The position numbers were made by a program, and so were the translations under genes. From NCBI GenBank assembly GCA_034687125.1, contig JAQGBZ010000072.1, positions 62,001 to 126,000 of the forward strand: a stretch of DNA of 64,000 nt. Direction: 5' to 3'. Within the stretch, counting starts at the first letter, position 1. The number at the start of each line of letters is the position of its first letter. Source of the DNA: Neelides folsomi. Taxonomy: Eukaryota > Arthropoda > Collembola > Neelipleona > Neelidae. Under the pieces are notes generated by a model, which worked only from the letters and a program-made list of their open reading frames with translations, was not told the origin of the DNA and made no database searches. Shown piece after piece: positions 45,485 through 64,000 of the stretch.

Positions 45485-45916
45485 ATGAAATGTGACATGG
45501 CGTCCGTGGCGACGATGAGCCCATTAGACTCCAATGGTGGCGGAATGATGGACGAAGACAATACTCCAATCCACTCTGGAGAAGAAAATGATCCTGGAGA
45601 TGGCGAAATGTCAGACTCCCAAATGGACCAAAGGACTATCACAATGACGAACGGAGTCGGAAGCATCGTCACTGCAACGTCGGCCATCATGACAACGACG
45701 GCTACCACTACCACCGAGAATGGAACTGTGATCCCTGAAGGAACCGTCGTACTTATGTCCATAGTACCAAAAAGGGAAATCGATGACGTGGACACGGACG
45801 GTGAAGCTCTCTTACCTCGAAAACAACTCGCGACAGTCGTCCAGACGAATGGAGATACGGCTCAAAATGTCACATTCCTCATTCAACAAGCGACTGCCGA
45901 CGACGATGACGGAGAT
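45485..45916 (+). CDS. TFAP2: AP-2 transcription factor, coding exon 1 (acidic N-terminus)
   Basis: Open frame of 144 codons from ATG at 45485 to donor GAT|GTAAAT, leaving in phase 0. A second ATG at 45497 (GACATGG) has the better start context, so the N-terminus may be four residues shorter. The peptide is acidic and Met/Thr-rich: MMDEDNTPIHSGEENDPGDG, a Thr run (TTTATTTTENGT) and a DDDDGD end. It carries no motif I can name. The assignment to AP-2 rests on strand, position, the matching phase 0 of exon 2 and the usual variability of AP-2 N-termini. In this family the N-terminal half is a transactivation domain in the nucleus. The link to exon 2 across a 7.35-kb intron is inferred, not seen. 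It could belong to another nuclear protein. Confidence 0.6.
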
Positions 45917-50363: not shown

Positions 50364-52570
50364 CGATGAAAATATATAACATATGAAAAGATATGACCAT
50401 TTACATAAATGGAAATATTATAGAAAATTGTATTACCAATACATATTTTCTTATAATTCCTAACTTTTATTGTTCTGAAAGTTCAGATCTAGTTCTTCCC
50501 GATAAAAATTTGTAGTAAGGGAGAAGGTGTGTATTGTGGTATGTATAGTTATGTAAGATAGGTATGTTTGTATATAGAATTTTTGTATGGGTGGGGGAGG
50601 AAAGCGAGGATTGGGACTTTGAGTTCCTTCCCAATTCTCCAACTGCGAGTTCTGGTTGGTAGGAAGGGCAGAAGTCTCCCTTCCATTACCTCCTTTCCAG
50701 ACTTTGATTGAATCCTCCTTCACAACCTCACAGATGGTCGATGGAAGGACTATATATGAATCTATGAGGCATAGCTTATTCGTTATTCGAATGAATGTAA
50801 CTTTTTCTGGACGATTAATGGAATTTGTTAATTGCACCTGTTTTATATGAGTGACTGGAGATACGCCCCGAACTCATCCTCAGAGGGGTATTAGAACTTT
50901 AACACTCCTTTCCCCTTGCTTGAGTCATTTACAATTAATGCTAAATAAACATCAGATGAGAGGAGGTCGGACGTGTGGTGCCGTCATTTTTACATTAACC
51001 TCTTGAAACTATCTAGAAATTCTCTTTACATTGTTCTCAAGAAAAATGCGAACACCTGTATAAGCATAATACATAATCCCTCCCTTCCACTAACATGTAA
51101 AAAGAGGAGATAATGTACATGAGATTCCAATTTTTTTTGGTAAATATCATGGTAAAAATCTCGACAGTCTTAATACATATTACGTAAAAGTATGGATTAT
51201 TACGTTTTGTGTATGGAAAAGGATGAGCCATTCTTCATTACTTGTTCTCCTTAGAGGGTTTAAAAGTGGACACCTCCTCCGCATTTGATAACAATCTCAA
51301 GTGTCTCTTTTATTTATCGTTTCAGCCCCGGTCGAAGGGGGCTTTTTTAATTCATTATTGTTCTTTTAATGTGGCGCACTGTCGAGAAATAATATGAGAA
51401 CATATTTGCATATTTTCGTGCTCATCGGGGTTCCTTCCCGTCCGAGTCCTCACAACACAAATGATTGTTAAATCCCCTAATAACTTTCGATTAAGTAATA
51501 GTAATTCCTCAATTGTGATTCGACGGCCCTAGGGTCATTTCATAATGTGCATGAGGCTTTCTCGGAAAATTAAATTAAAGAAGTGAAGCCGTCTATGAAA
51601 GTTAAAATCATACTCATCTCGTTTTATTTGCATTTTGAATGCAATTAAGCCCTCATAAAAACTATTAAAAAAACACTGCAATTTTGTTAATTGTGAGTAA
51701 ATTACCATCTAGCAGAGACTAACTAAAAACTATCATTAATTTCATTATGTATACTTTTCAATGTTCGTTGAATCTTATTAGATTATTAGTTAGTTAGAAG
51801 GAAATAGTGTAATATTAGGAAATGAATTCGTTTTTCCGGTATGCTGATGAGTATGAAGTTGCTTAAGTTCTTCAATGGTTTGTTAGTTAGCTCCCTTCAA
51901 TTTCAAAAGGAAATGAGGTGAAAATTGGTTTAGTCACTAAATTCCTATTAATTTCTCGGTTTATTGTTTGTGTTGAGTTGGGATCGACTCGTTTGATCTT
52001 CCTCTGTGTGGGTCCTCGCGTGCGAGAAGGGGCGAACCGACTTTGGGGCAATAAAGGGGGATGTGAGATGCGGAGATAGGGCTGACTTACAATGTAAATG
52101 GGCCGGAGTAGTGAAGATGCAGCGTGTAGTGTAGTAGGGAAGGGGGAATGTTTTTCGGGGCATGAAAGGCCCGAAGCAACAGTTCGGGAGGGAGTGAGGC
52201 TCGTAATATAATATAGCTTCGAGGTCTCCCTCAAAAAAATCTCAGTTCCCTCTTACCTTTCCGACACGCGACTACTACTAAATACTAGTATGTCCAATCA
52301 ACCATCCACGCTCTCACCCAATTTCAATCCCACAGCTCTTTTACCTTCCTCAAACTAATAACGAGTGGAATTTCATTGTCAATTTCATTGAATTATTTTT
52401 ACAAGTCAATTTAGTCATAAATGATAAACTTTAATAGATTTAGAAAAACTTGGATTTTAAAATGAATTAGTGTTGGATTTCACAGTTGATGTGATAGTGG
52501 TTTTAATAATTAGGTGCTTAGTACATTTGTTTACATTTTGTGAATTCCACTTTTTGGTGATTGTAGTTAA

Positions 52571-52643
52571 GGGATAAATGTATTCCTTTTTATCCCGCGG
52601 TGAAGGGAGAAGAATGAGATTTCTTCTCATCCTATTACACCGC
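52571..52643. repeat. Two directly abutting hairpins upstream of AP-2 exon 2
   Basis: Hairpin A (52571-52596) has 8-nt arms GGGATAAA/TTTATCCC. Hairpin B begins at the very next base (52597-52643): outer arms GCGGTG/CACCGC, then AGG/CCT, then perfect inner arms GAGAAGAA/TTCTTCTC around the loop TGAGAT. The stacked design resembles a structured RNA or a compound regulatory site. It lies about 0.63 kb before exon 2 in the presumed transcript strand. Confidence 0.6.
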
Positions 52644-53269
52644 TGTACCCAATCATGCTAATACTTTTGTACGATTCGAAGAAAGCGTTAGAGTTACGAT
52701 ACTCAATTCTTTCACTCAACGTGATAGTGTGATTTTCTTCGTGAGGTTTCTTTTCCCATGAAAAGATGAAGTGCTTAGATGACTGTTACAACTCTCCACA
52801 TCTTATGGTGAAAGAACAATTCTTGCACATCAATTCTTTAAAATAATTCATCATTCATATTTATTATCTGTTTAAATTAATGGACTAAACGAGCTTAAAT
52901 AATTAAGTTTGCATTGTTTTGAATCGTTTCTTCATGAAACACATTGATCGCTCTCTAGAGAGAAACAGTTACTTATTAGAATGACTCTTGTGACCGTCGA
53001 CATTTTGTTATAAAGAAAAATTGAGAATGTGAGGAAAAATTCTTTCTGGATTCGAAACACTTAAAATCCGGTAAAGCGAGGGAATGGGCCACAACTAATA
53101 TTACGAATAAAAGGCTCAAGCCAAGTCAAAAGTGGCGGAAAGAAAAGAAAAGGCATTATAAGTTTCAAAAAGTGTTGAAAGGAGAGAACAGGGAATTGTT
53201 GTTGTGAGGGTCCGTGGAGAATGAAGTAACATTACGAGTCTAATATATTGTCTTATTTTGTAAATGAAG

Positions 53270-53515
53270 GAGAGGGTGTCGAGCCATGGGGGTTCTTTGG
53301 GTGCCATAACGACGATCGGGACCGGTGGGTCAGGTGGGAGCGGAAGTTTTTCTTCTGGCCCGCGGATGACACCGACGTCCGACTTCCAACCTCCTTACTT
53401 TCCGCCGCCTTTCCCGACCACTCAGCAACAGATCGACTTCCATGCCGCTGCTCATCTCACTGCTGGGGGTGACCCTTACTCGCAGCTCAACTCCCTTCAT
53501 CAGCAACACTACCAG
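53270..53515 (+). CDS. TFAP2: AP-2 transcription factor, exon 2 (PY-motif activation domain)
   Basis: Encodes 82 residues in phase 0 to 0, ending HQQHY-Gln at donor CAG|GTATGA. After a Gly/Ser-rich lead (GTGGSGGSGSFSSG) comes SDFQPPYFPPPFP, the AP-2 family signature containing the PPxY-type PY motif (PPY at about residues 185-187). DPYSQLNSLHQQ follows, matching the DPYSxxN block of AP-2 proteins. In known AP-2 factors this region activates transcription and binds WW-domain partners. The acceptor is either 53269/53270 or three bases later (both phase 0), and its pyrimidine tract is weak. An in-frame ATG at 53264 lies just upstream of the acceptor and might start an unspliced form. Identification as AP-2 is firm. 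Confidence 0.93.
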
Positions 53516-53593
53516 GTATGAACCAAGCCCAGTTACCCCCTTCACCTCCGTGATGAGTGATTGAGTGATGGAGAATGTAAATATTGTTTACAG

Positions 53594-53875
53594 GGTCATC
53601 AGTTGGGAGCTCAGCGATCGCCGCATGACATCCGTCGGTCGGACGGAGATGGAATCCACGTGTCTGCTGCGACGAACATGCATGCCGCGGCCACTGCCGC
53701 TGGATTCTATGAGAGCAACCGTCGGGAGTATACAATTAGACGAGGAGATGTCCTGGTCCCTGCCGGCCACGTCTCAATCGATGGGCAAGATGGGCTCGTC
53801 ATTCACAACGCCATAGCGATGGACGATGGACAGGTTGGTGCCGCTACCTCTCCGTTTTTCATGCCACAGATGATG
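53594..53875 (+). CDS. TFAP2: AP-2 transcription factor, exon 3
   Basis: Follows a 78-bp intron with acceptor TTGTTTACAG. It encodes 94 residues in phase 0, starting GHQLGAQRSPHDIRRSDGDG. The segment YESNRREYTIRRGDVLVPAG lines up with the conserved RRDY...RRxDxLL block of AP-2 proteins, and the later IDGQDGLVIHNAIAMDDGQ with the region after it. The exon may end at ATG|GTGAGG (53875) or at CAG|GTTGGT (53833). Both leave in phase 0, so the 14 residues VGAATSPFFMPQMM may be optional. This part links the activation domain to the DNA-binding domain. Confidence 0.9.
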
Positions 53876-56138
53876 GTGAGGGCATCAGGAGGGTTTAACC
53901 TTTTCATCTCCATCAGTTAAAATTAATAATTTATTTAGAATTTTTTACCCTTTGCCCCCCTTCATCTTTGGTTTTTATTATATATAAAATAAAGATATTT
54001 ATTTTATTTTTATAATGAATTTACCTAAACTGCTTTTGCTTAGATAAATTGCTTTTATCTCCTATTGTTTGCAATATCATTTACGCCTCTTTGGTTATCC
54101 TTTGCATGATCAATTGAAGTTATGAAACCATTTTTGATTCTTAACTATTTTCATTTGTTAGGGTTCTAAAATTTAAAAAAAAATTATATGCCTAGGTCAG
54201 GTACGACAGAGGTCCTGAGAAAATAAATGGTATCTAATTGGATCAATTTGTCTCAGAGATGCAGGTGAAGGTATCTTTGTTAAATTACTGTGAGAGGAAC
54301 TGTTATTTGAGCTCTTGGTTCTTTTTAATCCCATACTTCATCCATTTCTCCAGATTTAAGCTATTAGAGCTATCTCTTTTTTTATTAATTTAATTGAGAT
54401 TGAATAAGGTAGATTTGCTCTCTTTGTTATTTAGGATATGATGATATGAAGAATTGGGCATTGAATTAAGTGAATGAGTATGGGATGAGAAGCATATATT
54501 GAAGGATCTATTCTCTGATTTCATTTTGTCACGTATTAAGAAAATCGTTTTTCCCTTCTCCAAGAAAATTACATATTGTGGTGCCGGAGTGATTTGGATC
54601 TCTTTTTAGAGAACCATCTTATTTGTTAAACCTAAGTATGAGAGACTCGGATGAGAAAAAAGTCGTAATAGAAGGAAGCGGAATTGTAAATTACTCCCGA
54701 TCCTAGGGTTAGGTTAGGGGAAGAAATGAATTTCCGATGAGGATAATAAAGAACAAAACGTGATATTTTGGCTTCTCCACTCTCCCAACCTCATTCCAGA
54801 TGAGGTTTCACTCAGACAGACTTGAATCAAGTGGAATGATGAAATCTCTCCATCTCATACCATTAGTTTGCCTCATTTGTTAAAAAAGGAGAGCGGCGGT
54901 CATGGAGCCGAGAAATGTTCATGAGACACACATTCCATTAAATTGTTATAAGTTCCTCTCGTCTCTCAAACACTTACGAAGATGATAAAATACACAATGG
55001 AGAATTAAGTGAAGAATACGAGTTGAGAAGAGAATATATCACAATTTTTTTGTTTTAAATCCTTAATAAAGGACGAGAGACGATTAGACCATTAGGAGCT
55101 GGGTGCTAAAATCTATGTAGTTTTTCCACATTTCAATGTCTTTTTTCCCATCCCTTTGTAAAGTTGAAAGATTTCCTCGCGCCTCATCCCCCCATGTTTC
55201 GAGACAATTTAAGTTAAACCCAAAGTTAATTTATTCTGCTCCCTTTTAGGCAGAATTTTTGGATATTCAAAAGGGAATAAATAATTAAGGAGATATTTTT
55301 AATCGATTGACCTCATGTAAGTTATTGTGTTATATCTCTTCGAGCGAATATTTGAAATGAGGGATGAAGGGGTTGAATGAAGAGAATATTATCTAGGAAT
55401 CACCCTCCGCAACCCTTGAAAATGTCAAATAAAATTCATTCGAGGGGATTGAGTCATTATTGATCTCGATATGCGTTATGCTATAATGCTGTTGAAATTT
55501 ATAGCATGATCTCTTTTAGAGGAATTCCCGAGTCTAGGGGTGAAATCCTGGGAGAGATTTAGAGATGAGTTGATATAGAGGCATAAATGCCTTTCTCGTA
55601 ACTCTATTGTACACTTGTACAGATATGAAATTATTATTACAAGAGGTTCTCATATCTTGTTATCAAATGTGCATGAACCCTTGACTGTTCTCTAATAATA
55701 TAAACTTGGGGATGTAATGAGAATTATTTATGGTTCAATTCACATTTCAAAATGTATTTATTGGGGGGTGAATCGTAAAATATTATGACGAGAGAATTTG
55801 AGAACTTTTCTCTGTCTTCTCCTTCTTACACATAGTAAATAGGGGATGAAGGGGGTGAGTCTTAATTGGAACATTGGTTGTGTGAGATTACTAAAAAGAG
55901 GGCTTACTTAATTTGTTAAGATGTCGTTTATGAAGGGAACATGATTTTATGACACTTTTTAATGTTTATTTTGACTTAAGCACGAAGTAATTCATTCATC
56001 CACGCATTTCTCCTCTTTATTAAAAAAAAGCTTCAATGTTGTGAATAATTGCTTGCTTGCCTATTATTGGGAGCCTTAAAATGTTTTTTGTTATGAATCA
56101 TGTCAAATTCTAAATCTTTTCTTTTCTTCAATTTATAG
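53876..56138 (+). other. Intron 3 of the AP-2 gene
   Basis: Begins GTGAGG and ends at the good acceptor TTCTTCAATTTATAG. AT-rich, with no further coding exon or recognisable repeat. Confidence 0.75.
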
Positions 56139-56196
56139 AACAATGTGGAGGAGAATGCAACTACGTACATCACTGCAGACATTCCGCTCCTCAAAA
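56139..56196 (+). CDS. TFAP2: AP-2 transcription factor, exon 4 (58 nt)
   Basis: A small exon with a strong acceptor (CTTTTCTTCAATTTATAG) and donor (AAAA|GTAAGC). It reads NNVEENATTYITADIPLLK plus one base, leaving in phase 1. That base (A) joins the GT at the start of exon 5 to make Ser, giving ...[13 protein letters not shown]. The sequence corresponds to the acidic, Asn-bearing linker before the DNA-binding domain of AP-2 proteins (compare the VEDANNSG-type stretch ending in a Lys-rich turn). Phase agreement on both sides makes this assignment secure despite the short length. Confidence 0.85.
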
Positions 56197-59100
56197 GTAA
56201 GCAAATTTTAAAAATTTCGCATGTATGAACTTGCAATAAATAAGTATAATCTTGCTATAAGAAGTCATAGAGGAAGAAAAATGAGGAAAGAAACGAAACG
56301 AAAGCAATAATCATATTACTTATTCTTCGTGGTATATTACACGACACAATTTGAGATTCCTTGTTTGGGAACGTTTTGTCAAGAAAGCGTGTTGGGATGA
56401 GGAAAGGTCGGAGATGGGATAAGTGGCTTTCATTGTCACACTCTGACAAAAAATGTCTTCCTTGACCTTTTGACGTCCACGACAATGGGTTGAATGGAGG
56501 TAGAATGAAATACTCCGACTTTTACATATAAACGAATGGAGGAAATTACTCATTTCCTCACAAAGGATTTGTAATGGAATTGATACGGGGGTAAAAGTGT
56601 CTGGAGTTGAAATGTTAACCATTCTTTTATAATGTGTGTGAGATACAATTGAGAGGATCATTTCTTGGTGTGTAAACTATCGAAAAACGGACACAAGTTG
56701 GTTTCCCTATCAAATCCTTTATCATTTTCATTCTTCATCCCTACAACAAGACATTTGAGAGACTTTTGACTCTCCAATAATCAAGGAATAGGTTAAAGCT
56801 CTTATACACAGACTGCATGTTGAAAATGGGGGAATTTTAACAAAGAATTTCCTTAAATTCTTTATTAACCTCCACAGCCTTTTGAGCCCTCTTTCTTCAT
56901 TATAAGCTGGAGTGAGGTCATAATAATATGAAAAGAGAATTTGAGAAAGCTTTTGAAAACTTCCCTTAGTTTTATTAGCATTTCTGAGATGCCAACTCTC
57001 AAACTTCTCATTTAATCCGAATATAAGAAGGGACGAAAATTAATATACATTTTCAAGATGCTACTAAAGCTATGTTTTTAATGTGTTCATACTCATCTCG
57101 TATGTTTTCAACAACATGCAATAAAATGCTTACTTATTTCAAGAACTTAACTCGAATCTTTGGTTTATTCATTATATATTATTTAGTAACTATTATAATA
57201 ATTAGCCAAGAAATGCTGAAATTTTTTAATTTTCTAACACTTCCATTAGTAGTTTAATTTGCAGAGAAAACAATTTAATTTTTTTAGCGAAGCGAAATAC
57301 TAATAGGATAAACTCATTGTTGTTCTCTCTTTGGAATTCTTTTGGAACATTTTTCTTCGTCGTATATTTAATATTGAAAATTTAATTGGAGTTGGATGGG
57401 ATTCAAATAAGATTCCTTTATACAGATAGTAATACATAATATGCATGCTTTATAATAAGATACCTAACTCATTGTTTCAAGATTCGTAGATGAGGGGAAT
57501 TTAAGGCTCATAGGGAAGGGAAAGAGGGAAGTAAAAGCCTTGTCATTCCGTTGATGATTCTCAGGTGAGGGATTTGTGATAAGAAGAGATTCATCTGGTG
57601 ATGAGATGCACGTGGGGGAATGAGATTCCTCTGTACACGATGTCATCTAGATTACGAAGACCATTAAGAATTCAAGTAGCGTGGTCAAATTCACCTCTTC
57701 ATACCGCCCGGCTTTTCATCCTCATTTAACGGATTGTGGGACTCCTGTCGCTCTGGTCTTAACTAACATTAATATCATCTCTATTCACAAGAATTAACTA
57801 TGGACATTCGTGCACCTACTATATCACATTCACACTTCATCCCATATTTTATTCTCTCATTTCCAAAGGAGTCCAAATTGAACAAGTATTCCAACATGTG
57901 CATGGGGTGGTTAAAGAGAGTTGCATAGCTCGAGCGCATTATCATTGATTCGTGGATGTCATATTTCATTTTGAGCTAGGTCTTATAGTAAATTGATTGA
58001 ACTTGAATTGAAGAACTAGTTACGAAGTAGACAGAATGCTCATTCTCTGATGTGTTGGTGAACTTTTAAGCTCATTAAATCTAAATTTGAGAGTTGTTAC
58101 AAATTGGCATTGCGGATTAGATTCCTTCTCCTATGTTTTCATGGGTCATTGGAAAGTCCGTCGACGGAGGTTATCCCTCACACACCCTTTTTTATTACTC
58201 AAAAATGAATTTGCATTTATAGATAAGGTGGGGAAGGCGATGAAGAATTCATATTAAAAGTAATGGGAGGAAAAATAATAAGAGAAATAACCATCGTTTG
58301 AGTTCCGCATATGAAATGATGGTTCTTTACTCATGTGCATTACGAGTTCCCGGCTGGGACTATTCCTCGGGTATATTCAACTAGAGTCATTGAGTAAAGG
58401 AAAGACTTGATTTGACGATAAACTCGTTTCGGATCAACTTTATATAATGCACATTACATTAAGCTCGCACATTTACACTCCATGTTATCGTTGTATAATG
58501 AAACATTCTGTGGTCATTAATCCTCCATGGCCTTTTTGTATAATCTGGATTTAAAATGCGGCGGAGTGAATTTTGAGAAGGTAAAGAACTCCTACGGATG
58601 AATACCGAGATGTCTAAGATGTGCACTGCACTTGTAAGTTATGCATAAAATATTGTGGAAATTCTAAAAGCTGACGTTCTAAATATGATGGTTCTGACGT
58701 ATTTACCCTACAAGACCAAATAGAGTTTTTAAAAGAAAGAATTTGAGAGGAATTCAAGTAATTAGTGAGATTGATGAACATCTCGCACCCTTACGACTCC
58801 CTCCGTTGTTATTTGTTATAAAAGGAGATTGAGTTGTGAGCAAGTTTATTAGCGGACCTTCATGAGGTTTCCCCGTAGAAGCCATGTAAATGTAAACATG
58901 TTAATTTCTTCTCTTCTACGGAGAGTCTATTAAGAAGAGCTTATGATGTGTCAACGAGGGGGAGGTTCATCATATTTAGGAATAAAGATTTGGAGAGAGA
59001 GGAAAAGAGGTTCTCTCGAGGTTCGGATAGATTATCCCATCATGTTCAAACTCGAATTTGGTTATAAAAAAGATGTTTGGAGAAAAATACTGTTTGCGAT

Positions 59101-61526
59101 AAATAGGGAGTTTGGGGAACTATCTGCATAGCAGTCCCTCTCCTTTCGTCCTCGGTGTTTATCTCTGTCGTCGAACTGCCAAACTCGGTTGAAGTGAGAT
59201 GCCTCTTCGGAGCGGGACAATGGGAGAGGAAATTGAATCGGGGAGTTGTCTATCCAAAGGACTATTATTCAATGGGACGTATCCCAACCTCCGCTCTTCA
59301 TATTCATATCAGAGGCCCGGGCTCTCATCTACTTCCCATTATGACTCCCGCTAACACCAACGCAAGTGAAAATCATTCAAATTTTCCTTCACCTCACAAA
59401 TGTATTCAAATTTTGGAACTCATACACGCACTGATCTTCATCGGGAACTTAAAACTTATGGAAGGATTTCTATGAAGATCGAACAATTTTCAATGAACAT
59501 ACTGGCTAAGAGATGAGGAATGATAATGATCTCTATTGGGGAATATGGGTTTTTAGATTAAAATTTCATAACTATTGAATTCCAATTCTTAATCTTTCCC
59601 ATCTTTCATTGAGTCGTTCTTTCGGAATAATGGAGAAAAAGATTTATTCATTTTACACTTGATATTTTTACTTTAAATGTTTACCCTTTGAATTTATATT
59701 TCCATTTTTCCATTTTATAATGATAAAGCATTGACATTTTTTAGACTTATAAAACTTCATATTTATTTTATATTTGATTTGACTTTGCAAATCCAAGCAA
59801 ATCATATTTACTACCTATAAATGTCCCTGTACTAACAGTATGTTGTCAATGTTTGAGTGTTGGGTGATCATCCCCATATGCAGTGAAGTAGGTACATTCA
59901 GAGGAAGATATTTAGAATGGATCAATGGATAATATTTATTGAGTTTATATCAAGTGTTTGTATGTGAGAGAAGAGGTAGGTTGGGTCTGTGTCCATCATT
60001 GAAAAATGTCCATGTAATAGAGCGAGATGGGGATAAAGGGGAAGCCGAGGTATTTGCATTCGATAGAGGAGAATGACTCCGAATTGATGGTAAGGATGAA
60101 TCGTCGGAATGAGGAGGGTTTGGAAGGGAGGATGAAACCTCGGCTTCTTAATTGAAATCGCCTTTTGATACCGATCAGCTCATCGTGAAGGCGTTGAAGT
60201 CTCAAAGGGTCTTTTCAATTATCGACTATTAAGAGCTTCTTCATATTTACTTCTACATGGAAAATGTCACTCACTCCCTTTGAGACGGTTGTAAGTAGGA
60301 ATGTAAGTTTCGGGCTCTCCTTTTTCATCCCTCTCTTGCACTTGTGGAGTCTCGGGAAAAGGAGAAACATCCCCGTCGTTCCTCCTATTATACGTTGTAA
60401 AGACCAAGAGTTATCGCCCATCATCCCCCACGTAAGAACTACGAGGATGAGAAACTTGAACCTTACCATTTATGAGGGAAAAGGAATAAAAGGAATTATT
60501 ATTGGGAGAGTGATTTAAGAGGAGGAGGAGAAGATGACTCCAAGACACACGGGGTTTGCCTATCCAAACTCCAGGTTGGATTTACATTTAGCGAAAATGC
60601 CACTTGGCTAATCCGACTCCTTTACGACATGGTTCACCGTGGCTTATACGACGTAGACATTGGGAGAAGTGTATAATGTTCATTTGAGAGGGCCATGAAC
60701 CATTGGTATTATTTACCGTGCAGACGTATCATCTCCTCTCTTCGCCGTTTTTTTCCTAGTAAAACAAATGAGGGTTCTACCTGAACTCTCCTCTCTCCAC
60801 TCACATTCTGAGAGTGAGGGAGAGAGACGCGTAAATTTGTTTTCTTTCAATCTCTTTTTTTACTTTTCCTCAGCCCTTGTGTATCTAACGAACTGGCCAT
60901 CCTATATGCAAATGAAAGACCAGCTGAATGGACCAGTGAATATAATAATAATAATAGTGAGATTCGAGATTCGGATCCTCAATTGTCTTGGAATCTATTA
61001 GGGAGGTAGTGGAGATAAGACATGAGAATTCCTTTTATCCCTTACGACCGCTACTGCGTTCCTGACTTCCTAATTATTACCTTCGAGTTGCAATTAGATC
61101 CTATGAGTCTCCCAGTCTCCGACACTCCAAACTCTTTCCATATACATCAAATGCACATTTTGGTCTTTATAGATTTAAATAAAGATACATTATACATGCT
61201 ACTTTGTTCAATTTCAATCCTGTATATAATAATTAATAGTAATTTACCAAGATAGCCTATGATTTGTATTATGCAGCCTTTGTGCCAACGATGCCTTAAA
61301 TAATATTTTTCCTTATTAGCTTTAAATATTAGGAAAGATTTTGAAAAGCTCGCAAGTTTTTATTTAGCAATTTCAATTGAATTGATCTTGGAGAAATGGG
61401 AATGGATATAAAATTCCTATTTAATGAGTTAGAGCATGGTGGGGTTGATAGTGTTCACATGTTATTGTGTATTTTATTGTTCTTTGATTCGCGTTAGGAT
61501 CGTTTGTCTGGAGTCAAGATAACTTC

Positions 61527-61543
61527 ATCTCTCAGTGAGAGAT
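61527..61543. repeat. 17-bp palindrome centred on TCA-G-TGA
   Basis: ATCTCTCA-G-TGAGAGAT is perfectly symmetric. It shares its centre with the palindrome at 10375-10391 (CTCGATCA-G-TGATCGAG). No TATA box lies at the expected distance upstream. Confidence 0.6.
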
Positions 61544-62229
61544 ATTTATTAACGATACGATGTAAAAAAACTGAAGAGAGATGAGGGAGTTATTCTGCAG
61601 ACTTAACTTTGATAAAGAAAGACGGCGACATTTACGACTGACGCTTACGAGCTCGATTAGTAATTATTATTTGAGACGGGGCTCTTACCCCTTTCGCCGC
61701 CATTTGATCATTATTGATATGACAGGGAATACCTTTGCTCACTCTGTGAGAGTCCCGACGAGACCCGGTCGGCTCTCCAACAACGACCGGTTTCATTCCA
61801 CGTATTTAATTATTCTCTCTTTTCTTAATTCCTAATTACTTGATTACACACATGGTCTTACATTGTTCTACGACGAGGTAACAAGGGACGAGTTTATTCT
61901 TTCACATTCTGTTGTCTGTTATTTTATTATTCACAAAAAAGTATTATGACCGTAAATGTGAATTATGATTTTCTTCATTGGAATAACTCTGAATGGTGAT
62001 CAGATTCATCACGCAAAGAAGTACCTTTTGTTCTTTGTGTACTTTTAGCATCTCCTCTCTCATGCAAATTAAAAAGTCCCGAACAACTATGCCAAGTTTT
62101 TATAAATTAAATGGAAAGGGAAAGAAAAATTCCATTGTTGGCAACACTATTGGGCTCCATGGGTAAAGTGAGTGAAAGAGGGAGGGTGGGTTTGATTACA
62201 ATCTGAATGCTGAGCTCCCGTCCCGGGCT

Positions 62230-62263
62230 TATTTAAAACATTCCCCCAAATCCTCCATTCATC
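62230..62263 (+). promoter_or_regulatory. Possible promoter of the acidic alternative exon
   Basis: TATTTAAA at 62230-62237 lies 27 nt before CCATTC (62255-62260), which resembles an initiator, and the ATG follows at 62288. No DPE is seen. The CT-rich stretch 62251-62281 could instead be a splice-acceptor tract ending in GAG at 62285. Confidence 0.35.
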
Positions 62264-62287
62264 CCCCCTTTTTCCTCTTTTGGAGCG

Positions 62288-62477
62288 ATGAGTGAGAGCG
62301 AAGGAAGTGACGCTCCCGAATCAATCGGGAACGATGACACCGAGACAGAGGAAGAGAATTTAGACATGAAACCAAATATTATTATTGAGTGGACTACCAA
62401 CGATATTCTTGGTGAAGGGAGAAATAGAGGTGACGACGATCCCGATGACAATTTAATAGAAGACGATGAAAACGAAG
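62288..62477 (+). CDS. TFAP2: Acidic alternative (first or cassette) exon of the AP-2 gene
   Basis: ATG in a fair context (GCGATGA) opens 63 codons plus one base, ending at donor GAAG|GTTCGT in phase 1. The peptide (MSESEGSDAPESIGNDD..., PNIIIEWTTNDIL, ...NLIEDDENE) has 24 Asp/Glu and only 3 Lys/Arg, with Trp, Ile and Leu embedded, the style of an acidic activation domain. Its G plus the GT of exon 5 makes Gly, so it reads ...[14 protein letters not shown] into the DNA-binding domain. Used as a first exon it would replace exons 1-4. Read as a cassette from a GAG acceptor at 62285 it is also in frame (phase 1 to 1, with a Thr at the junction). I know no such exon in other AP-2 genes. Confidence 0.55.
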
Positions 62478-62912
62478 GTTCGTTTTAGCGACAACACTTT
62501 AAAATGGTTTCAAGTTGAAATTTAAAACTCTTATTTCATAGATATTGATCTCATTGTTCTCAAAGCTCATTACATATTTTAATTAATTTTAGCTGGACTC
62601 ATGGATCTTTGTAAGACAACCTTTTTACTTATTTTTTAACAGTTATCATTGAGGGTTAATTTTACTAATAATAGGTTCTTCACTAATAGTAGTTTAATTA
62701 ATATAGATGTGTGGTTTAAAGAAGGTATATTATTTAAATGAATCTCGTCAGTTTAACCTCAATGCCATTGCTTTCGTTTCGTTTCGAATGTCATCATTTA
62801 TAATCCATTATGTGAGTTTGGAAATGTTTCTCGACAGATGTGCTTTTACAAAAAATGTCAATTCAATTATTTTAAAATTTAAACTAATTAGGTTCGTACG
62901 GAATTATTTTAG

Positions 62913-63108
62913 GTATGAAGCCAAGAGAAGGCAAAGATATCGTGTTGGGTGGAATGGCAGCTCCAGCCGATGTGTTCTGCAGTGTTCCCGGTCGACTCTC
63001 CCTCCTCTCCTCCACGTCGAAATACAAAGTGACAGTGGGAGAAGTTCAACGAAGGCTTTCGCCACCGGAGTGCCTCAACGCTTCCCTCCTCGGCGGAGTC
63101 CTCAGAAG
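62913..63108 (+). CDS. TFAP2: AP-2 transcription factor, exon 5 (start of DNA-binding domain)
   Basis: Acceptor GAATTATTTTAG and donor AAG|GTACAG bound a 196-nt exon (phase 1 in, phase 2 out). After [19 protein letters not shown] it encodes [20 protein letters not shown], then [20 protein letters not shown] and GGVLRR. This is nearly identical to the opening of the conserved AP-2 C-terminal domain, which carries the basic DNA-contacting region and, further on, the helix-span-helix dimerisation region. The boundary after GGVLRR corresponds to the exon end known in vertebrate AP-2 genes. The rest of the domain (expected to begin AKSKNGGRSLREKL) is not in the window. Identification is certain at family level. 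The paralogue cannot be told. Confidence 0.97.
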
Positions 63109-64000
63109 GTACAGTTTTTATTAAAATTACTTATCTTACCACCTCCAGGAGTCCGTAATAAGTAGAGTTTCTCCTGCCAAGAGATTATTTACGGGCTCCT
63201 TTTTTAGATTCCTTTTGTTTCGTGCTTAATTGACGGGAGGAGTATGTGTGCCCATTAATTTCATTTTGAGCTACAGAAGGCAGAATTTTAATTACTTAAG
63301 TTTGATTAATTAAATTTTATCATTTATCATTTTACACCCAAAGTCCATCCAAGCAATTGACACGACAAGACAAGGGGAAATAAATAGCTACTTTCACACT
63401 AGTCTTCCTTTGTATGCGAAGAGAATGACAAGGTCTTATACGAATACAAATGAAAGAGGATTATGTACTTAGGAACATTATGAACCGTCAATAATCTTCG
63501 TCTCATAATAGTTATTACTGGTTAGATGTATTTTTGAGAAACATTAAGGAATGAAGGTAAAATGAGTAGAAAAGATAATTTATCAATTCTTAAGTAGGAT
63601 GAAAAAAAGGAGTTTGAGTGATTTTCCAACATTTGTTGGTTCATGTGTGAGAAATGTCAATGAGTTTTATGAACAGCGGCGGTTCTTTCCAATGACTCTT
63701 TCCAAGATGAGGGTGAGAGAGGAAATTGTATACCAAATGGAGAAGGAACCTATGATTAGACCCAAGCTCAACCAAAATCCACCCATCATTACAATCAAAT
63801 CCTCTCCATCATCATTAACATCAATATAGGCGAGGTTTGTCTATGAATATACCTAATCACTCTCATCTCACATCCTCTCAATTAAGTCCCAAACAACAAC
63901 GGTCTTTTGATCATTAATACAAAATATCCTCTTTCTATAAGAGCATTTAAAGGGAAGATGTTTATAAAGAAATTAAGAATGAGGAAAATTAGAGGAGAAA
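63109..64000 (+). other. Intron 5 of the AP-2 gene, incomplete
   Basis: Starts with GTACAG and continues past the window edge. The open frame at 63599-63829 does not resemble the next AP-2 exon and is most likely chance. Confidence 0.8.

Follow-up and report, generated by a model that had tools for sequence, protein, structure and literature searches.

A predicted acidic internal exon directly before the DNA-binding exon of an AP-2 gene

Transcription factors of the AP-2 family are conserved and regulate animal development. In the AP-2 gene considered here, a strongly acidic open reading frame lies directly upstream of the exon that opens the DNA-binding domain, and the question is whether this frame is a part of the gene. 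The frame could be an internal exon of AP-2, an alternative first exon of the same gene, a separate small gene nested in the intron, or a non-coding stretch that is open by accident. The window, that is, the whole stretch of DNA that was analysed, comprises 64,000 nt (G000:C72:62001-126000) of a genome of 75.1 Mb in 840 contigs. Contig C742 of this genome carries COI, and the frames beside it, read as ND2, COII and ATP6, give a gene order resembling that of arthropods, so that the DNA is likely from an arthropod-like animal.

A profile search of the genome with the TF_AP-2 family (PF03299) yielded four matches, all on contig C72 and in order, so that no PF03299 gene other than AP-2 was found. 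The match in the exon adjoining the acidic frame, at 62913-63108, is over the Pfam cut-off (E 8.5e-21), and the same exon matches the human AP-2 alpha and beta chains among the PDB sequences (8j0k, 8j0q), so that it is a clear member of the family, in contrast to the acidic frame, which has no match there. One of the four profile matches holds three stops, since it spans two frames, each of them open over the matched stretch; the later AP-2 stretches matched by PF03299 are open when read in frame. With the AP-2 exon as the query, no AP-2 relative was found in viral and prokaryote contigs, which was a long shot for an animal gene. No RNA family reached its gathering score within the window, and a scan for tRNAs with the bacterial code found none. 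The exons to which the acidic frame has to be related are the following.

53270-53515, plus strand: AP-2 exon with the PY motif DFQPPYFPPPF; its 5' limit is uncertain (ATG at 53264 or a weak acceptor before 53270)
53594-53833, plus strand: AP-2 exon GHQLGAQR...AMDDGQ, phase 0/0
56139-56196, plus strand: upstream AP-2 exon (NNVEENATTYITADIPLLK), 58 nt, phase 0 in and phase 1 out, assigned by position and phase
62913-63108, plus strand: AP-2 exon opening the DNA-binding domain, phase 1 in and phase 2 out, assigned by PF03299 and the human structures

The motif DFQPPYFPPPF, spotted by eye inside the open frame 53264-53521, is presumably the AP-2 PY motif of the upstream activation region, and the 56139-56196 exon bears what we take to be a resemblance to vertebrate AP-2. 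The acceptor of the 62913 exon reads TTTTAG/GT, with the AG at 62911-62912, and is in phase 1.

The acidic frame starts with the ATG at 62288 on the plus strand and runs for 63 complete codons through 62476, followed by a G at 62477 and the donor GTTCGT in phase 1; it is free of stops from 62237 up to the TAG at 62486-62488. Its 63 residues (62288-62477) comprise 24 Asp/Glu and three Lys/Arg, with a pI of 4.05. The acidic residues are spread unevenly, with 11 of them at residues 1-26, three at residues 27-47 and 10 at residues 48-63, and in the 64-residue insert discussed below two acidic clusters flank the more hydrophobic NIIIEWTTNDIL stretch. The distance from the frame to the DNA-binding exon is 435 nt. 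Thus, the initial annotation was right in describing a strongly acidic 63-codon ATG frame situated 0.44 kb 5' of the conserved exon, and its claim that the phase-1 donor suits that exon also holds, as both sites are in phase 1. The peptide MKP is common to the acidic frame (DMKPNIIIEW, 62363-62392) and the start of the DNA-binding exon (62915-62944), probably by chance.

A frame of this kind might be non-coding or decayed sequence, such as the remnant of an exon or a degenerate tract rich in purines. Its acidity argues against this. By net acidity, taken as the excess of D/E over K/R in the most acidic 63-residue segment, it ranks first among the 769 stop-to-stop frames of at least 63 codons on both strands of 264 kb. 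In 2 Mb of random sequence generated by a Markov model, none of the 3971 frames of that minimum length has more than 15 Asp/Glu. The Asp/Glu codons are mixed (GAA 7, GAG 5, GAC 7, GAT 5), and no tandem repeat was found at the frame, so that the acidity does not stem from a simple GAN repeat; no notable longer repeats were found in 52000-64000 either. The base-by-codon-position chi-square also speaks against an accidental frame, being 38.1, while the highest value among 943 overlapping windows taken from AP-2 introns is 17.6. However, since the three known AP-2 exons score within the intron range in the same test (9.7, 11.5 and 11.4), this periodicity flags the frame as unusual rather than exon-like.

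The codon score of the acidic frame is 23.0 bits, a value reached by one of the 639 other frames that were not used for training. The training set consisted of hand-picked open reading frames, without the acidic frame and with the AP-2 exon 53594-53917. The synonymous part of this score is -1.7 bits, the whole coding score hence being amino-acid composition; for five other AP-2 stretches the synonymous parts are 6.6, 1.7, 6.2, 1.7 and -0.4, the stretch with 6.2 having been in the training set. Such neutral synonymous usage speaks for a non-coding stretch, and so does the lack of a homologue: the acidic frame has no match in Pfam, no chain among the PDB sequences at E up to 10, and no second copy in its own genome, by DNA or by protein. 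On balance, we regard the frame as likely protein-coding and an accidental origin as very unlikely.

The reverse strand is also open at 62233-62484 (minus strand), for 83 serine-rich codons, with a total codon score of -3.6 and a best stretch of 16.6 when the training set held the acidic frame. With training that leaves the acidic frame out, the best 63-codon stretch of this open reverse frame has a codon total of 1.1 and a synonymous part of -2.5, and another reverse frame, which is not open, has a codon total of 1.9 and a synonymous part of +12.6, above the -1.7 of the sense strand.

If the frame is spliced into AP-2 as an internal exon, its boundaries should carry splice signals in phases that agree with both neighbouring exons. 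The stretch 62286-62477 has an acceptor, an open frame, a donor and phases suiting both neighbours, the features being as follows.

62258-62262, plus strand: branch-point-like TTCAT, with the A at 62261, which precedes the final acceptor base by 24 nt; the sole yTnAy match in 62235-62275, a short motif and hence weak evidence
62270-62285, plus strand: polypyrimidine tract and AG acceptor-like site TTTTCCTCTTTTGGAG, by trained and generic splice matrices
62286-62477, plus strand: predicted internal AP-2 exon, 192 nt, phase 1/1, (T)MSESEG...DENE(G), from the frame, splice-site scores and phases
62430-62435, plus strand: a further phase-1 donor in the same frame, GTGACG, 48 nt 5' of the one at 62478 (donor score 2.8 versus 2.7)
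62478-62483, plus strand: donor AAG/GTTCGT, phase 1, by trained and generic splice matrices

With the trained matrix the acceptor at 62285 scores 5.39, and nine of the 3785 AGs on the plus strand of the window, itself included, score at least equally (28 of 3785 with the generic matrix); its position -3 is occupied by G, a disfavoured base. The donor at 62478 is more ordinary: its score of 2.73 is reached by 117 of the 3139 GTs in the window, itself included (210 of 3139 with the generic matrix), and falls at the 53rd percentile of 34 model introns, or the 50th with the generic matrix. Use of the donor after 62429 would cut the insert by 16 residues. The splice matrices were built on these 34 introns, themselves predicted by a simple gene finder that got back one AP-2 intron (53516-53593) and missed the known DNA-binding exon. 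All these scores are rough, since the known AP-2 acceptor at 62913 itself scores weakly (6th percentile with the trained matrix and 0th with the generic one).

We then consider the site and coding scores together, with codon training that leaves out the AP-2 exon 53594-53917. Scored as an internal exon, 62286-62477 obtains 31.2 bits, the best of the 17 phase-1/1 candidates and of the 146 candidates of any phase in the 6716-nt AP-2 intron, while 300 introns simulated by an order-3 Markov model of this intron without the acidic region stay at or below 15.1 in phase 1/1 and at or below 18.5 in any phase. Among non-overlapping internal-exon candidates in 264 kb it takes rank 27; judged by look, most of the best 60 seem to be pieces of ordinary genes, and at least one ranked above it (L024:2339-2529) looks repetitive. 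Simple arithmetic leaves a total of approximately 6.4 after removal of the composition part, below 8.6, the 95% point of the null for the full score. As a value of approximately 6.4 is not exceptional, the case for the exon joins its composition with a strong acceptor in the right phase.

Since the exon 56139-56196 ends in phase 1 and the length of 62286-62477 is 192 nt, both inclusion and skipping preserve the frame, and the translated joins of AP-2 with and without this stretch read free of stops. As far as sequence can tell, 62286-62477 is probably a real AP-2 coding exon, spliced internally between 56196 and 62913, constitutively or as a cassette. The earlier suggestion that the frame codes for protein and fits AP-2 by phase is supported. 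As a fallback, the initial annotation had proposed an internal exon entered through the 62285 acceptor, with the PY motif kept; this part fits better than the reading it preferred (31.2 versus at most 18.5 in simulated introns), although inclusion may be constitutive rather than alternative.

The preferred proposal had been an alternative first exon replacing the PY domain: transcription would begin near 62261 from a promoter inside the gene (TATTTAAA at 62230), and the ATG at 62288 would open a PY-less AP-2 isoform with an acidic N-terminus. The promoter would consist of the following elements.

62230-62264, plus strand: TATA-like TATTTAAA and Inr-like TCATCC, the first T and the A being 31 nt apart; a possible promoter

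The ATG does sit at the beginning of the acidic stretch, the reading is open onward into the DNA-binding exon, and the spacing of the TATA-like and Inr-like elements (31 nt) agrees with this view. There is also a precedent, as vertebrate TFAP2A isoforms arise via alternative first exons 1a, 1b, 1c and a doubtful 1d (PMC3219183). These isoforms differ at the extreme N-terminus alone and differ in activity, which is linked to the sumoylation site of exon 1a. The sequences encoded by exons 1a, 1b and 1c are very short, whereas exon 1d, which would give a 60-residue N-terminus, is primate-only and known from one EST (PMC3219183). However, TATA/Inr-like pairs at least as good as the present one number 499 in 528000 strand-bases; as an equal score comes once per 1058 strand-bases, which is the background frequency, the pair adds little to the first-exon reading. 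Moreover, the acceptor-like site 2 nt 5' of the ATG, one of the best nine among 3785, would have to be a coincidence. With an ordinary promoter pair and this strong acceptor left unexplained, the first exon is the weaker of the two proposals, and we consider it unlikely.

The acidic frame also has its own ATG and stop, and could represent a nested small gene unrelated to AP-2: either one for an acidic protein of 66 residues, with the TAG at 62486-62488 as its stop, or one whose first exon is this frame, spliced elsewhere. The simple gene finder did call the frame a separate single-exon gene, 62288-62488. On the other hand, AATAAA, ATTAAA, AGTAAA and TATAAA are all absent from 62489-62912, the frame has no relative elsewhere in its own genome, and the phase match with both adjoining AP-2 exons would be due to chance. 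A nested gene is hence quite improbable.

For the internal AP-2 exon, the predicted splicing would be from 56196 to 62286-62477 and further to 62913, in phase 1/1. This would insert 64 residues between ...IPLLK and MKPREG..., the PY region being kept. The alignment with the human AP-2 structures starts approximately 11 residues past the insertion point, hence the insert is placed in the linker before the DNA-binding domain. The insert may be disordered and would bring an acidic patch near the DNA-binding domain, where it could act as an additional acidic patch for activation or regulation, could weaken DNA binding by its charge when included and so repress by competition with DNA, or could do neither. 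Among these roles we favour the acidic activation patch, as a guess.

A more specific and tentative possibility, which we hold to be rather less probable than its opposite, is a regulated phase-1/1 cassette, perhaps able to use either of two in-frame donors (after 62429 and 62477), that toggles the acidic patch beside the DNA-binding domain and so tunes DNA affinity or activation with the PY region unchanged. This would be an isoform route unlike the vertebrate first-exon scheme. If the acidic exon is used, the two systems would be alike in that isoform diversity arises 5' of an unchanged AP-2 DNA-binding region; they differ in that the TFAP2A exons are located at the 5' end of the gene (PMC3219183), whereas the present, strongly acidic exon sits directly 5' of the DNA-binding exon. 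Thus the exon, if real, differs from the vertebrate case in both position and composition. Among the literature matches listed, no acidic internal AP-2 exon was recognised. Should the exon be both used and regulated, functionally distinct proteins could arise, via a linker change, from the single AP-2 gene found in this compact genome; if the exon is only constitutive, it would be a lineage-specific insertion of modest interest.

Two further observations concern other open frames. At positions 2-9068 of L020, a run of long same-strand open frames with short gaps looks like one large gene, perhaps, as we would guess, of the large lipid-transfer protein kind. Within the window, a second acidic open frame, MKCDMASVATMSPLDSNGG...ADDDDGD, occupies 45485-45916 on the plus strand and is followed, after 45916, by a phase-0 donor (score 0.7). 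This frame may be a first coding exon of AP-2, joined to the weak phase-0 acceptor before 53270 (score 0.8).
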